DNA from: Methanobacteriota archaeon
Lineage (GTDB): Archaea; JAADCQ01; Methanopyri; Methanopyrales; Methanopyraceae
DNA length: 45,993 nucleotides
Direction of reading: 5' to 3'
Assembly: GCA_027064305.1 (NCBI GenBank)
Contig: JAMOPY010000025.1
Location: 1 to 45,993, forward strand
Position numbers and translations under genes: made by a program. This document shows positions 14,053 to 19,881 of this stretch, piece after piece. The notes below the pieces were generated by a model. That model did no database searches, had not been told where the DNA came from, and was given only the letters and a program-made list of their open reading frames with translations. Position 1 is the first letter of the stretch; every line of letters starts with the position of its first letter.

Positions 14053-15021
14053 TTGTTCTACTTCCCGGGTAAGGAGCAGAAGGTGGTGGACATCTGCGGG
14101 GTGAAGATCGGGGGTCAGCCCGGAGAGTACCCGACGGTGCTCGCCGGCACGATGTTCTACGCCGGGCACAAGATCGTGAAGGACGAGGAGAAGGGCGAGT
14201 TCGACGAGGAGAAGGCCGAGGAGCTCATCAAGATGGAGGAGGAGCTGGCCGACGAGACCGGTAACCCGATGATGGCGCACATCATGGCCGAGTCGGAGGA
14301 GGCCATGATCCGGTACCTGGACTGGGTCGCCGACGTGACCGACGCGCCCATCATCGTGGACTCCACCGAGGCCAACGTGAAGATCGCCGCGGTCAAGCAC
14401 GCGCAGGAGGTCGGCCTGGCCGAGCGGATCGTGTACAACTCGATCAACGCGTCCGCCGAGGACGAGGAGATCCAGGCGATCAAGGAGTCCGACTGCAACT
14501 CCGCCATCGTCCTGGCCTTCAACCCGATGGACTCGTCCATCGAGGGGCGCCTGAAGATCCTCACGGAGGGCGAGGAGGGCGTCTCCGAGCAGGGCATGCT
14601 GGAGATCGCCGACGAGTGCGGCATCGAGAACCCGCTGATCGACACCGCCGCCACGCCGTTCGGCTCGGGTGCGGGCCAGTCCGTGAAGGCCGTGATCGCG
14701 GTCAAGGCCAAGCTAGGCCTGCCCGTCGGCGGAGCGCCGCACAACATCCCGTCCGCCTGGGACTGGATGCGGGAGCTGAGGAAGAAGCTCCGCGAGGAGG
14801 GCAGGGAGGACTGGGCCAAGATGATGTGGGAGTCCGTGGACTGGGGCTCCAACATCCTCGAGAACATCCTAGGGGCCGACTACCTGCTCTTCGGACCCAT
14901 CGAGAACGCGCCGGCCATCTGGGCGGCAGCGGCGATGATCGACGCGCTGATCGCCGAGGCCAACGAGGACATCGGCATCGAGCCGCAGGTCGAGGACCAC
15001 CCGGCCAACATCGTCCGCTAG
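14053..15021 (+). CDS. mtrH: Tetrahydromethanopterin S-methyltransferase subunit H
   Basis: Soluble catalytic subunit that moves the methyl group from methyl-tetrahydromethanopterin to the MtrA corrinoid; TIM-barrel methyltransferase fold. It has 322 residues with family blocks DICGVKIGGQPGEYPTVLAG, GTMFYAGHKIV, APIIVDSTEANVKIAAVKHA, VYNSINASAEDEEI and AATPFGSGAGQSVKAVIAVK. The start is TTG 14053, 25 nt after mtrG, the widest gap in the mtr genes, with GGGGGTGATGTCCG upstream. Its stop TAG shares the palindrome CTAG with the stop of the convergent cobN fragment, so no room exists for a separate terminator. Confidence 0.97.
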   Translation: MFYFPGKEQKVVDICGVKIGGQPGEYPTVLAGTMFYAGHKIVKDEEKGEFDEEKAEELIKMEEELADETGNPMMAHIMAESEEAMIRYLDWVADVTDAPIIVDSTEANVKIAAVKHAQEVGLAERIVYNSINASAEDEEIQAIKESDCNSAIVLAFNPMDSSIEGRLKILTEGEEGVSEQGMLEIADECGIENPLIDTAATPFGSGAGQSVKAVIAVKAKLGLPVGGAPHNIPSAWDWMRELRKKLREEGREDWAKMMWESVDWGSNILENILGADYLLFGPIENAPAIWAAAAMIDALIAEANEDIGIEPQVEDHPANIVR

Positions 15022-16277
15022 TCCCCACGTCCCCACAGTCCCCTTTTCTTCACCTCCCCCAGCACCTCCCGCGCGTACCGCACCACGTACGGGTTCTCGT
15101 CCGAGAAGCGCCCCTCGTACCGCCGCAGCGTCTCCTCGATCCGTTCCCAGCACTCGTCCGGCACCCGACCCGTCGTTGCGTCCCACCCCAGCAGGTTCTT
15201 CACCCGCTTCAACCACTCCGACGCGCCCTTCGCCCCGTGCCTCAGCATCGCCTCGATCCACTCCTCGTTCGCCAGCTTCTGATCCACCAACCGCCGCAGC
15301 TCCTCCTCGATCGACCGCGTGAGCACCCGGTTCGGGTCCGTCACGTCGTGATGGTAACACTCCACCCGCTCCCCCGAGAGCTCCTCCGCCGCCGCGACCA
15401 TCCCCCCGTGGAACGCGAAGTGGCAGCAGCAACCGAGGAGATCCCACTCGTGCGAGGACTGCGCGACCGACACCGCCCGCACGTTGGACAGCGCCCGCTC
15501 GAACTCCTTGAAGGCCTCCTCGCCGAACGCGTCCCGACCGTAGGCGTACCCACCCCACCGCACGTACACCCGCGCCAGGTCCGACCGATCCTCCCACGCG
15601 GACGCGTGCACGGCGTAGTTCACGCCCGCCCCGTACGCCCCCGGCGGGTCTCCGAAGACGCGGTGACCGCCCCCGTGCCGCCTCACGAAGTTCTCCTCCT
15701 CCGACTCGTCCCGGTTCCGAACCAGCTCGAACGCCTCATCGAGGAGCTCGATCAGGTTCGGGAACGCGTCCCGGAACATCCCGCTGATCCGGACCACCAC
15801 GTCCACCCTCGGCCGGCCCAGCTCCTCGACCGGGACCACCTCCAGCCCCCGAACCACGCCCGCTCCATCCCACCGGGGCCGCACGCCCAGCAACCACAGG
15901 ACCTGCGCCAGCACCTCACCGCCCGTCCGCATCACGTCCGACGCCCAGAGCACGATCCCCACCGCGCGCGGGTACCCGCCCCGATCCTCCCGGTACCGCT
16001 CCAGCGTCCTCTCCGCGAGCCGCCGGCCCACCCGCCAGGCCCGCCGGGTCGGCACCTTCCGCGGGTCCACCGAGTAGAAGTTCTTGCCCGTGGGCAGGAC
16101 GTCCACGTCGCCCCGCGTGGGGTTGCCCGAGGGACCCGGCTCGACGAACCGCCCCTCGAGCGCCCTCACCGTAACCTCCAGCTCCCGCTCGCACGCGAGC
16201 AGCCGGCGGAGCACCGAGCGCGCGAACTCCCGGGCCTCCTCCGGGACCGCCTCCCGCACGCGCTCCTTAAGATCCAA
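15018..16277 (-). CDS. cobN: CobN/BchH-type chelatase, C-terminal part of a split gene
   Basis: CobN is the large subunit of ATP-dependent metal chelatases that insert cobalt into corrin rings or related metals into tetrapyrroles. This 419-residue protein matches only the C-terminal third of full-length CobN. Landmarks are EPGPSGNPTRGDVDVLPTGK then NFYSVDPRKVPTRRAW; GIVLWASDVMRTGGE; LEVVPVEELGRPRVDVVVRI; SGMFRDAFPNLIELLDEA; and ENFVRRH. The rest is encoded divergently at 16351-18417. The start is set at TTG 16277, behind GGGCGGGGTCCGG. GTG 16289 is possible. The frame is open to 16382, but that would cross the other half's start. The split falls in a helical linker, so both parts look intact and could assemble. 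The metal and ring cannot be read from sequence. Confidence 0.9.
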   Translation of the reverse strand: MDLKERVREAVPEEAREFARSVLRRLLACERELEVTVRALEGRFVEPGPSGNPTRGDVDVLPTGKNFYSVDPRKVPTRRAWRVGRRLAERTLERYREDRGGYPRAVGIVLWASDVMRTGGEVLAQVLWLLGVRPRWDGAGVVRGLEVVPVEELGRPRVDVVVRISGMFRDAFPNLIELLDEAFELVRNRDESEEENFVRRHGGGHRVFGDPPGAYGAGVNYAVHASAWEDRSDLARVYVRWGGYAYGRDAFGEEAFKEFERALSNVRAVSVAQSSHEWDLLGCCCHFAFHGGMVAAAEELSGERVECYHHDVTDPNRVLTRSIEEELRRLVDQKLANEEWIEAMLRHGAKGASEWLKRVKNLLGWDATTGRVPDECWERIEETLRRYEGRFSDENPYVVRYAREVLGEVKKRGLWGRGD

Positions 16278-16310
16278 ACCGGACCCCGCCCGCACGTCGT
16301 ACCACGAAAC

Positions 16311-16335
16311 GTTACTAAGGTAACACCGAATAAGC
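16311..16335. promoter_or_regulatory. Shared promoter/operator between the two cobN halves
   Basis: The 73-bp gap contains the inverted repeat GTTAC-TAAG-GTAAC (16311-16324). CGAAACGTTACTAAGG on plus resembles the BRE/TATA elements of the mcr genes, about 35 nt before GTG 16351. GGCTTATTCGG on minus (16325-16335) is a TATA-like box for the C-terminal half. The repeat overlaps the plus-strand box, so one factor could control both. Confidence 0.4.
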
Positions 16336-16350
16336 CTTGAGGGGGTCACC

Positions 16351-18417
16351 GTGCGAGCCCTCTGCGTGTGCTCCCGCGTCATGCTCCGGGCCGCCCGGCG
16401 CGTGGCCGAGCGACTCCCCTTCGACCTCGAGGTGGCGACCCAGGACGACGCGCCCGAGTCCGGGGACTACGACCTGATCGTCCTGCTCCGCGTCACCCGG
16501 CCCGTCGTCCCGGACGAGAGCGCGGAGATCGTGGCCGTGCCCGTCGACGGCTCCACCGGGGTTCAGTCCCTGAACACCGTGCCCGACCGGGTCGTCGACC
16601 GCGTGCGGGAGTACGTGGAGTACGGCGGGGAGCGGAACCTGGAGCACGCCCTCCGCTACCTGGCGAGCGAGGTGCTCGGGCTGGACCTGGGGTACGAGCC
16701 CCCGGAGGAGCGACCGTGGGACGGCCTGTACCACCCGGATCGCGGCCCGCTGGAGGGGCCGCCCGGGCCCTCCGACCGGGAGACGGTCGGGGTCTACCTG
16801 AGCCGGGAGATGTGGGTCTGGGGCTGCACCGACGTCCCGGACCGGCTGATCCGGGAGGTCGAGCGCGCGGGCGGTCGGGCCCTGGGCGTGTTCACCAGGC
16901 CGGGCCGCGGGCGCCCGCTGGACGAGCTCCTCACGGTGGACGGGGAGCCGGTCGTGGACGCGCTGCTGGTCGTCAAGAAGCCCTCCTTCAAGCGGGGGTA
17001 CGAGCGGGGTTTCGAGGCGCTCCGCCGGCTCGGTGTGCCCGTGATCAACGCGGTGATCTCCTGGTACCGGTCCCGGGGGGAGTGGCGCGAGTCGGAGCAG
17101 GGGCTGGGCCCGGGCGACCTGGCGTACGGGGTCGCGATGGGCGAGCTGCAGGGTCGGGTCGATCCGATTCCGGTCGGGTTCAAGGCCGAGGACGGCTACG
17201 AGCCGGAGCCCGGGCGGTGCCGGCTGGCGGCCCGGCGGGCGCTGCGCTGGGCCCGGTTGCGTCGGAAGCCGCCGGGGGAGCGCCGCGTGGCGGTCGTCCT
17301 GAACAACGGGATCTGCTCGCAGGGGGAGGCCGGGATCGGGTCGGCGATGGGGTTGGACACGTTCGAGAGCCTGGCCCGGTTGCTGCGGCGGCTGCGGGAG
17401 GAGGGGTACCGGCTGGACTGGGTGCCGGAGGACGGTCGGGAGCTGGAGCGGGAGTTCTTCCGGCGGCGGGCGTTCAACGAGTTCAAGGGCACGACCGTGG
17501 AGGACATCCTGGCCGCGGGCGGCGCGGTGGATCTGGTCCCGCTGGATCGGTACCTGGAGTGGTTCGAGGAGTTGCCGGAGGAGCTGCGGGAGCGGATGGT
17601 GGAGGAGTGGGGTGAGCCGCCCGGGGACGCGATGGTGGTGGACGACTGCATCGTGATCGCGGGGATCCGGACGGGGAACGTGTTCCTCGGGGTGCAGCCG
17701 AAGCGGGGGTGCGCCGGGACGGAGTGCAGCGGGGAGGTCTGCAGGATCCTGCACGATCCGCACTGTCCGCCGACGCACCATTACTACGCCTTCTACCGGT
17801 GGATCCGGGACGAGTTCCGGGCGGACGTGCTCCTGCACGCGGGGACGCACGGGACGGTGGAGTGGCTGCCGGGGAAGTCGGTGGGGTTGTCCGAGGCGTG
17901 CTGGCCGGAGGTCTGCGTCGGGGACCTGCCGGTCGTGTACTGGTACATTGTGAGCAACCCGTCCGAGGGCACGCAGGCGAAGCGGCGCGGGTACTCGACG
18001 CTCGTGGATCACTGCCCGCCGCCGCTGGGGGAGGCGGAGGCGGGGGTGAGGGAGCTGGAGGAGCGGCTGGAGGAGGCGGAGCGGTCGGGAGAGGTGGACC
18101 CGCGGTTGTTCGAGGAGTGGGAGGCGCGGGCGGGCGCGTTCATCGAGAGGGGACTGCACGTGATCGGGGAGCCGCCGCGGGATCCCGGGCTGCTCTCGGA
18201 GTTCCTGTACGCGCTCTGCCGGAACCGGCTGCGGGAGCTGATCGCCCGGGAGCTGGGGGTGGACCTGGGGAAGGCGCTCGAGCGCCCCGGGGAGGAGAGC
18301 GAGCTGGGGGTCACGAATCGGGAGCTCGTTCGGGCGATCGATGAGGTGGTCCGGGAGGTGTGTGAAGGGGTGGTGGAGGAGGAGCTCGGGTCCGAAAGGG
18401 ATAATCCGGTCGGGTGA
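16351..18417 (+). CDS. cobN: CobN/BchH-type chelatase, N-terminal part of a split gene
   Basis: N-terminal two thirds of a CobN-type chelatase, 688 residues. Recognisable segments are GTTVEDILAAGGAVDLVPLD; GDAMVVDDCIVIAGIRTGNV; FLGVQPKRGC; ILHDPHCPPTHHYYAFYRWI; LLHAGTHGTVEWLPGKSVGL and YWYIVSNPSEGTQAKRRGYS. These are the conserved CobN/BchH core, including the His-rich metal-handling motifs. It ends after a helical stretch and lacks the LPTGxNFYSVDP region, which is encoded on the other strand at 15018-16277. Together the halves total about 1,107 residues, close to a full CobN. The start is GTG 16351 with GAGGGGGT 4 nt upstream. The position beside mtr suggests corrinoid supply, but this is inference. 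Confidence 0.92.
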   Translation: MRALCVCSRVMLRAARRVAERLPFDLEVATQDDAPESGDYDLIVLLRVTRPVVPDESAEIVAVPVDGSTGVQSLNTVPDRVVDRVREYVEYGGERNLEHALRYLASEVLGLDLGYEPPEERPWDGLYHPDRGPLEGPPGPSDRETVGVYLSREMWVWGCTDVPDRLIREVERAGGRALGVFTRPGRGRPLDELLTVDGEPVVDALLVVKKPSFKRGYERGFEALRRLGVPVINAVISWYRSRGEWRESEQGLGPGDLAYGVAMGELQGRVDPIPVGFKAEDGYEPEPGRCRLAARRALRWARLRRKPPGERRVAVVLNNGICSQGEAGIGSAMGLDTFESLARLLRRLREEGYRLDWVPEDGRELEREFFRRRAFNEFKGTTVEDILAAGGAVDLVPLDRYLEWFEELPEELRERMVEEWGEPPGDAMVVDDCIVIAGIRTGNVFLGVQPKRGCAGTECSGEVCRILHDPHCPPTHHYYAFYRWIRDEFRADVLLHAGTHGTVEWLPGKSVGLSEACWPEVCVGDLPVVYWYIVSNPSEGTQAKRRGYSTLVDHCPPPLGEAEAGVRELEERLEEAERSGEVDPRLFEEWEARAGAFIERGLHVIGEPPRDPGLLSEFLYALCRNRLRELIARELGVDLGKALERPGEESELGVTNRELVRAIDEVVREVCEGVVEEELGSERDNPVG

Positions 18418-18438: not shown

Positions 18439-19881
18439 ATGGGGCTATTCTCTCGGCTGTTTCGCCGCGGTCCGGAGCCGCAGGTGGCCGAGAGCGAGCG
18501 GGTCACGGGTCCGATGGCGGTCAGTCGGAACTACTTCATCGTGGCGTCGGTGGAGCTGGGTAACACGACGACGAAGTGCATCCTGACGGCGACGGACCTG
18601 GAGGAGGGGATGACCTACCTGATCCACAAGGAGGTGCGGATGACGCGGGACGTGCGCCCGCCGCGGACGGGGGAGGAGGTGTTCGGGGAGACGGTCTGGG
18701 GGGTTCAGCTCACGCGCGAGTCGGTGGCGGAGATGGTGGCGGACACGCTCAAGTCCGCGGTGCGGAGCGCGAACATCCGGATCGAGGACGTGCACTTCGT
18801 GGTTCGGTCCACCGGGGTCACGGCCGGGTTCGCCTCGCCCGAGGAGGTGGGTGAGATGATCAAGGCGCTGGCGGACGGGTGCCTGAAGGCGGGCGTGCCG
18901 CCCAACCGGATGACGGCGGCGATGAGCAAGGAGAACATCCCGGAGCCGTTCCGGGAGTACTCGCTGATCGACAAGGTCTACTTCGACGGGGCGGTCACGG
19001 GGGTGAAGCCGCCGGCGGGCAAGGAGATCGTGGCGAACGAGATGGAGGGCGAGCTGGTGATGGCGGGGATCAAGGCGGGGGCGAAGGCCACCAAGGTGGA
19101 CTTCCGGAACCCGTGCATGGCGATCGACTACGGGACCACGCTGGCGGGCCGGATCACGAACGATGAGCTCCCGTACGCGGACACGATCGGTAACCTCTGC
19201 GGGCTGGCGGGCGCGATCATGGACGCGATCTCGCGCGGGTGCGGGGAGATCGACGAGGAGACGGGCTGCGCGCTGGACCTACCTAAGGACGTGGAGCCGG
19301 ACACGGGGGAGAAGGCCCGGGAGCTGGCGGAGGAGGCGCACGAGTACATCGACATCCGGGAGGTCCCGCGCACCGCGAAGCGCTTCGGGACGGTGCCCGT
19401 GGACCCGAAGCGGGCGGAGAAGGCCGGGCTCAAGCTCATCGGGTGCGACGTGGGGGAGAACGGTAGCGACCTGCCCCGGCTGACCGAGATCGGTCGGGAG
19501 GCCTACGAGGAGGGCGGGTACGAGCTGCTGTTCGGGGTGCTGGACTGGACCGCCACGATCATGGCCAAGCGCCTCATCGAGACGGCCCTGGACCTCGACC
19601 TGATCGACGAGAACACGGCCATCGGCATCACCGGCCGGGCGGGGATCACGGGCAAGAAGCCCGAGCTCATCTGCCGGATGGTCCAGGAGGAGTTCGGGGA
19701 CTACTGGGACCCGGAGGAGGACCTGGTCTTCGTCGACGACGGGCTCGCCCGCGGGGCCGCGACCATGGCCCGGTGCATGAACTGCCTCGGCACGCCCAAG
19801 AACCCCCTGGGAGGGAACCGCGGGGGCGGGTGCATTCTCGGCCTCCGGATCAAGCACCAGCGGAAGGAGAAGGCTTCCTGA
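18439..19881 (+). CDS. mmp14: Methanogenesis marker protein 14
   Basis: Member of the methanogenesis marker 14 family, found almost only in methanogens; function not established. The 480-residue protein has a basic, Cys-free leader of about 35 residues, then IVASVELGNTTTKCILTATD, whose LGNTTTK resembles the phosphate-1 loop of actin/Hsp70-type ATPases. Further blocks are KEVRMTRDVRPPRTGEEVFG; VWGVQLTRESVAEMVADTL; AIDYGTTLAGRIT (a second phosphate-type loop); and GTPKNPLGGNRGGGCILGLR at the end. I infer an ATPase-like fold. The start is ATG 18439, 21 nt after the CobN half; an ATG at 18514 is an alternative closer to the conserved start. Confidence 0.88.
   Translation: MGLFSRLFRRGPEPQVAESERVTGPMAVSRNYFIVASVELGNTTTKCILTATDLEEGMTYLIHKEVRMTRDVRPPRTGEEVFGETVWGVQLTRESVAEMVADTLKSAVRSANIRIEDVHFVVRSTGVTAGFASPEEVGEMIKALADGCLKAGVPPNRMTAAMSKENIPEPFREYSLIDKVYFDGAVTGVKPPAGKEIVANEMEGELVMAGIKAGAKATKVDFRNPCMAIDYGTTLAGRITNDELPYADTIGNLCGLAGAIMDAISRGCGEIDEETGCALDLPKDVEPDTGEKARELAEEAHEYIDIREVPRTAKRFGTVPVDPKRAEKAGLKLIGCDVGENGSDLPRLTEIGREAYEEGGYELLFGVLDWTATIMAKRLIETALDLDLIDENTAIGITGRAGITGKKPELICRMVQEEFGDYWDPEEDLVFVDDGLARGAATMARCMNCLGTPKNPLGGNRGGGCILGLRIKHQRKEKAS

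Follow-up and report, generated by a model that had tools for sequence, protein, structure and literature searches.

The large subunits of class I chelatases, such as CobN (PF02514, TIGR02257; structure 7c6o), usually consist of a single continuous polypeptide. The heme dechelatase HmuS (9d26, 9p4s), which is further characterized by transmembrane ends and a Met-rich insert, shares the same fold. In this enzyme, His-538 of the HFG(T/A)HG motif lies across the cleft from His-1209 of domain V; both histidines bind a cation, and His-538 is essential (PMC12583661). CobN-like proteins are also numerous in archaea, with roles that have been described as unclear (PMC12583661).

Here we describe a locus from a Methanobacteriota archaeon of the family Methanopyraceae (assembly GCA_027064305.1, contig JAMOPY010000025.1), in which a large subunit of this class is encoded in two parts by divergent genes, designated cobN-N and cobN-C; the window referred to below is the entire analysed stretch of 45,993 nucleotides. 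The pair is a real two-gene form, spread across the genus, of a CobN carrying a particular cysteine signature, and the working model we consider most likely, as judged from the sequences, is that both proteins would assemble. Another example of a usually single-chain enzyme occurring as two subunits is the reverse gyrase of Methanopyrus kandleri, a protein unrelated to CobN.

Layout of the gene pair

The features of the locus are given below in window coordinates.

14053..15021, plus strand: gene which we take to be mtrH, ending the methyltransferase operon; it converges on cobN-C with an overlap of 4 bp and, though syntenic with the pair, is no component of the chelatase
15018..16277, minus strand: cobN-C, C-terminal part, TTG start at 16277, 419 aa
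15423..15431, minus strand: codons for Cys283-Cys284-Cys285 of cobN-C, the last two of which align with Asp-1208 and His-1209 of HmuS
16278..16350, no strand: divergent spacer, 73 bp between both start codons, partly conserved in an alignment of four Methanopyrus genomes
16351..18417, plus strand: cobN-N, N-terminal part of a class I chelatase large subunit, GTG start, 688 aa
17710..17742, plus strand: codons for Cys454-x4-Cys459-x4-Cys464 in the active-site loop (Loop I), immediately ahead of His468
17836..17853, plus strand: codons for HAGTHG (residues 496-501), the domain III active-site motif of the type H-x-G-x-H-G; His500 corresponds to His-538 of HmuS
18439..19881, plus strand: downstream neighbor of cobN-N, presumably a methanogenesis-marker-14-like gene, adjoining cobN-N in all five Methanopyrus genomes

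As proposed in an earlier note on this DNA, cobN is divided between two open reading frames on opposite strands, which jointly reach the length of CobN: of the 1090 positions of PF02514, cobN-N matches 2-519 and 572-662 and cobN-C matches 676-1085, without any overlap and with E-values of about 1e-155 and 1e-157 for the two genes. The location of the halves on opposite strands also bears out its statement that no frameshift is involved, and a frameshift artefact is thus ruled out. Since the profile is covered over its whole length by the two genes together, their products, as judged from these matches, complement each other to give one large subunit of the CobN/class I chelatase type. The cut-offs of NF004646 (1468 bits) and TIGR02257 (822 bits), which are set for whole proteins, were reached neither by cobN-N (480.8 and 320.5 bits, respectively) nor by cobN-C (414.6 and 436.1 bits), nor by the sums of both.

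The start codons are kept in the other Methanopyrus genomes, with TTG for cobN-C and either GTG or TTG for cobN-N. An in-frame ATG is present on the minus strand at 16382, upstream of the TTG of cobN-C, but the protein similarity to two of the other genomes (G001 and G002) starts at the TTG. The spacer probably holds both putative promoters. The presence of mtrA upstream of mtrH was confirmed by a match to PF04208.

Conservation among Methanopyrus genomes

The divergent pair is common to four of the five Methanopyrus genomes, two of which are finished; G001 and G002 each consist of one contig (1,421,521 bp and 1,694,969 bp, respectively). In G001, G002, and G003, it is flanked by mtrH and by the downstream neighbor listed above, and because this layout recurs in independent assemblies, a misassembly is excluded; a comparison of the locus among Methanopyrus strains had been advised in the earlier note. 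In the fifth genome, G004 (L117, contig C18), cobN-N keeps its downstream neighbor and is joined on its upstream side to a feoB-like region, which sits elsewhere in the other Methanopyrus genomes; this junction reflects either a genuine rearrangement of the genome or chimerism of the contig. The mtr contig of G004 (C50) ends inside mtrA, before the expected cobN-C site, and mtrH was not found in the G004 assembly, so cobN-C may be either present or lost in this genome.

Both halves are under purifying selection. The dN/dS values between the window and G003 are 0.22 for cobN-N and 0.20 for cobN-C (full-length CobN, 0.21), and those between the window and G002 are 0.17 and 0.18, respectively (full-length CobN, 0.15). 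For cobN-N compared with other Methanopyrus sequences, the values range from 0.17 to 0.26, and among the four pair-bearing genomes they amount to about 0.11-0.22 for both halves, close to those of full-length CobN (0.08-0.21). Rows labelled C2 in this comparison are disregarded, as an internal stop shifted their codons.

Two of the genomes contain damaged copies: G001 (L114) shows a frame-shifting 4-bp deletion in cobN-C and, close to the 3' end of cobN-N, a second frameshift, while G002 (L115:6608-8299) lacks about 119 residues of cobN-N in frame and has the last residues of cobN-C shifted. These lesions may represent either real decay or sequence errors, and if real, they would suggest that this lineage may be losing the pair or can do without it. 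Together with the full-length CobN present in every Methanopyrus genome compared and the additional paralogs, they could be taken to mean that the pair is a remnant which was kept by selection until recently and is now being lost. We consider this unlikely, because the window genome and G003 have intact copies of both genes, with dN/dS values of 0.20-0.22, and because no copy extending over the active-site motifs has lost them.

The full-length CobN of the window genome, for which the earlier note had suggested to search, is present (C1, 1182-aa frame), and three longer CobN-like genes occur in addition. Several CobN-like paralogs were observed in each of the Methanopyrus genomes (G000-G004), some with frames of about 2000 aa.

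Ancestry of the pair and recurrent fission

Separate trees of the N and C parts agree in placing both Methanopyrus halves as sister to the rest of an archaeal CobN clade, which is supported by values of 100/100 in the N tree (26 rows) and 98/92 in the C tree (24 rows). Both trees also place the halves apart from the full-length CobN of the genome, ruling out an origin of the pair from the latter. The pair is a separate paralog with a cysteine signature and not the ordinary CobN of the genome, a point that goes beyond the earlier note. L142, which had appeared as the single nearest relative in early, archaea-poor trees, was replaced after wider sampling.

In nine further archaeal genomes (L214-L222), the gene is cut at the same place, with the halves always on one strand and adjacent in all nine cases; the order is N-C in eight of them and C-N in one (L221). 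Most of these tandem genes show short overlaps, which are of the GTGA type in L218. The sample also contains eleven whole genes from ten genomes (L183/L142, L224-L233), and one whole and one split gene were even found in the same genus (G318 and G400). A search of genome contigs with cobN-C yielded 79 loci outside Methanopyrus, and those with enough flanking sequence read on into the N part without a break. Splitting at this site is a recurrent event in archaea, with 4-5 changes between split and whole forms by parsimony, and within the sample examined, only Methanopyrus shows the divergent layout. A topology uniting all split forms in one clade was rejected (AU values of 7e-39 and 2e-13), with the reservation that a long stem leads to Methanopyrus. 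Where fission or fusion has repeatedly affected a single point, as here, that point identifies a boundary between modules of the enzyme.

To explain the layout, the earlier note had invoked an inversion inside or next to an ancestral cobN gene. The divergent orientation agrees with an inversion, but the proposal of an inversion inside an intact gene did not hold up as well, since same-site fission without inversion in nine genomes indicates that the gene can be split and inverted in independent steps, and the same divergent layout would arise if one member of a tandem pair were inverted. In favor of an origin from a continuous cobN, the layout fits an inversion of the N part in place, whole genes exist in the sister clade, and parsimony counts only 4-5 split/whole changes. 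On the other hand, fission without inversion is common at this site in the sister clade, and the C-N order in L221 indicates that the order can change independently. An inversion inside intact cobN is therefore possible, but unneeded to explain the pair, and we regard it as the rather doubtful alternative to an inversion or move of one gene from an already split tandem pair.

Two further loci deserve mention. One member of the family (L223:4805-8084) is interrupted at a different position, within the N part (frames of 328 aa and 781 aa), which could be a frameshift, and another archaeal genome (G006:C1:750890-753891) contains a cobN in several pieces with in-frame stops, which has apparently decayed. 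The passages covered from open-access papers on archaeal gene fission or CobN do not mention the split described here.

Cysteine signature across both halves

The proteins of the archaeal clade share a signature distributed over both parts. The motif QPK-x-G-C-x4-C-x4-C-x-[IV]-L-H-[DN] occurs in 26 of 26 N halves, and two consecutive cysteines followed by C, S, or G are present in all 24 C halves. The signature is absent from the 31 other rows of the trees, and both Cys motifs are absent from 73 bacterial loci bearing HxGxHG. By the C-x4-C-x4-C loop, the CC motif, and their placement in the trees, cobN-N and cobN-C belong to this clade, and they share the position of the cut with its split members (L214-L222); the other members are whole (L183/L142, L224-L233). 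Unlike the Methanopyrus pair, which is divergent and located beside mtrH, these relatives are whole or arranged in tandem, many of them adjoining a ChlI/D gene and some an importer of the BtuF/FecCD type.

The pair is homologous to CobN over nearly the whole length, albeit in two pieces encoded on opposite strands, and the HxGxHG motif is kept, whereas the Cys loop and the CC(C) motif replace the SDD(Y) of CobN. In comparison with HmuS, the histidine of HxGxHG is likewise retained, and the distance from His468 to His500 (32 residues) equals that from His-506 to His-538 in a motif alignment. In the same type of alignment, however, Cys284-Cys285 take the places of Asp-1208 and His-1209, so the domain V motif of the Methanopyrus subfamily has Cys where HmuS carries His-1209, and one side of the predicted metal site would consist of Cys instead of His or Asp. 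As predicted from these alignments, the two sides of this site lie on different chains in all split members. The clade-wide occurrence of the signature at a predicted metal site provides a concrete hypothesis about the chemistry: the Cys loop and the CC(C) motif might come together in the tetrapyrrole cleft, where they would bind the metal, hand it on, or carry a metal cluster, forming a thiolate-based class I chelatase or dechelatase whose active site would be complete only once the chains join. We put this forward tentatively, with less than even confidence; no thiolate chemistry of that kind is known to us from CobN, ChlH, or HmuS.

Predicted structures and the site of the cut

The model of cobN-C (pLDDT 88.6) matches M. 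tuberculosis CobN (7c6o) in Foldseek with a TM score of 0.84, with 43% identity in the structural alignment, and the crystallised C-terminal CobN/ChlH fragments 9fpc (TM 0.80/0.87), 6ys9, and 5ewu. By homology, the protein would comprise the last portion of the helical domain IV together with domains V and VI. The first 70 residues are modelled with lower certainty and probably belong to domain IV, which packs on the N half. The model of cobN-N (pLDDT 73) is weakest around the active-site loops; its best match is again 7c6o (E-value 4.7e-37), and the top matches are class I chelatases. The cut is located near a gap in the profile match of other archaeal paralogs, and HmuS contains a 120-residue insert near the equivalent position (PMC12583661), suggesting that the cut sits in a region tolerant of change.

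The matches to crystallised lone fragments indicate that the C module can fold alone, which would allow the halves to work separately, with the C protein acting for example as a tetrapyrrole carrier or sensor and the N protein being otherwise employed. Separate promoters are possible, and the location of cobN-N away from the mtr operon in G004, as opposed to the mtr-adjacent cobN-C in the other four genomes, would also fit. We nevertheless regard separate roles as very improbable, because active-site residues are kept on both halves and the halves stay adjacent in each of the nine other split genomes.

Proposed function and potential partners

The reading we favor, and consider probable, is that the pair represents one chelatase large subunit of the CobN/ChlH class made as two polypeptides that assemble around a shared active site, although the assembly and the cleft chemistry are deduced from sequence comparisons; the need for both products to form one chelatase had been anticipated in the earlier note. 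The N protein would supply the active-site histidine of HAGTHG and the Cys-x4-Cys-x4-Cys loop, and the C protein the tetrapyrrole-binding domain with the CC(C) motif. Both chains would assemble into one body with the tetrapyrrole held in the cleft between them, His500 of one chain being placed opposite Cys284/285 of the other, and a AAA+ partner similar to ChlI/ChlD would drive metal insertion. With natural two-chain versions, each half can be studied separately, as can the question of which elements come together in the active site.

The sole candidate found for a AAA+ partner in Methanopyrus is a ChlI-D-like protein of 830-854 aa that contains both AAA and VWA regions (L246:5068-7629, L247:5480-7969), a distant match (205-217 bits against a cut-off of 779) whose gene is unlinked to the pair; it is a possible chelatase motor, as judged from its domains. 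With regard to the substrate, cobalt and a corrinoid are a tentative choice, proposed with less than even confidence. MtrA carries a cobamide, and the mtr neighborhood is weakly suggestive of a corrinoid role. Among the relatives, many contain a ChlI-D-like AAA+ gene (similar to TIGR02442) directly after the CobN gene, a BtuF/FecCD/ATPase-type importer precedes the CobN gene in at least two loci (L218, L225), recalling the hmu operon, and two tetrapyrrole methylase genes are located nearby in G029. These neighbors point to corrinoid or other tetrapyrrole metabolism.
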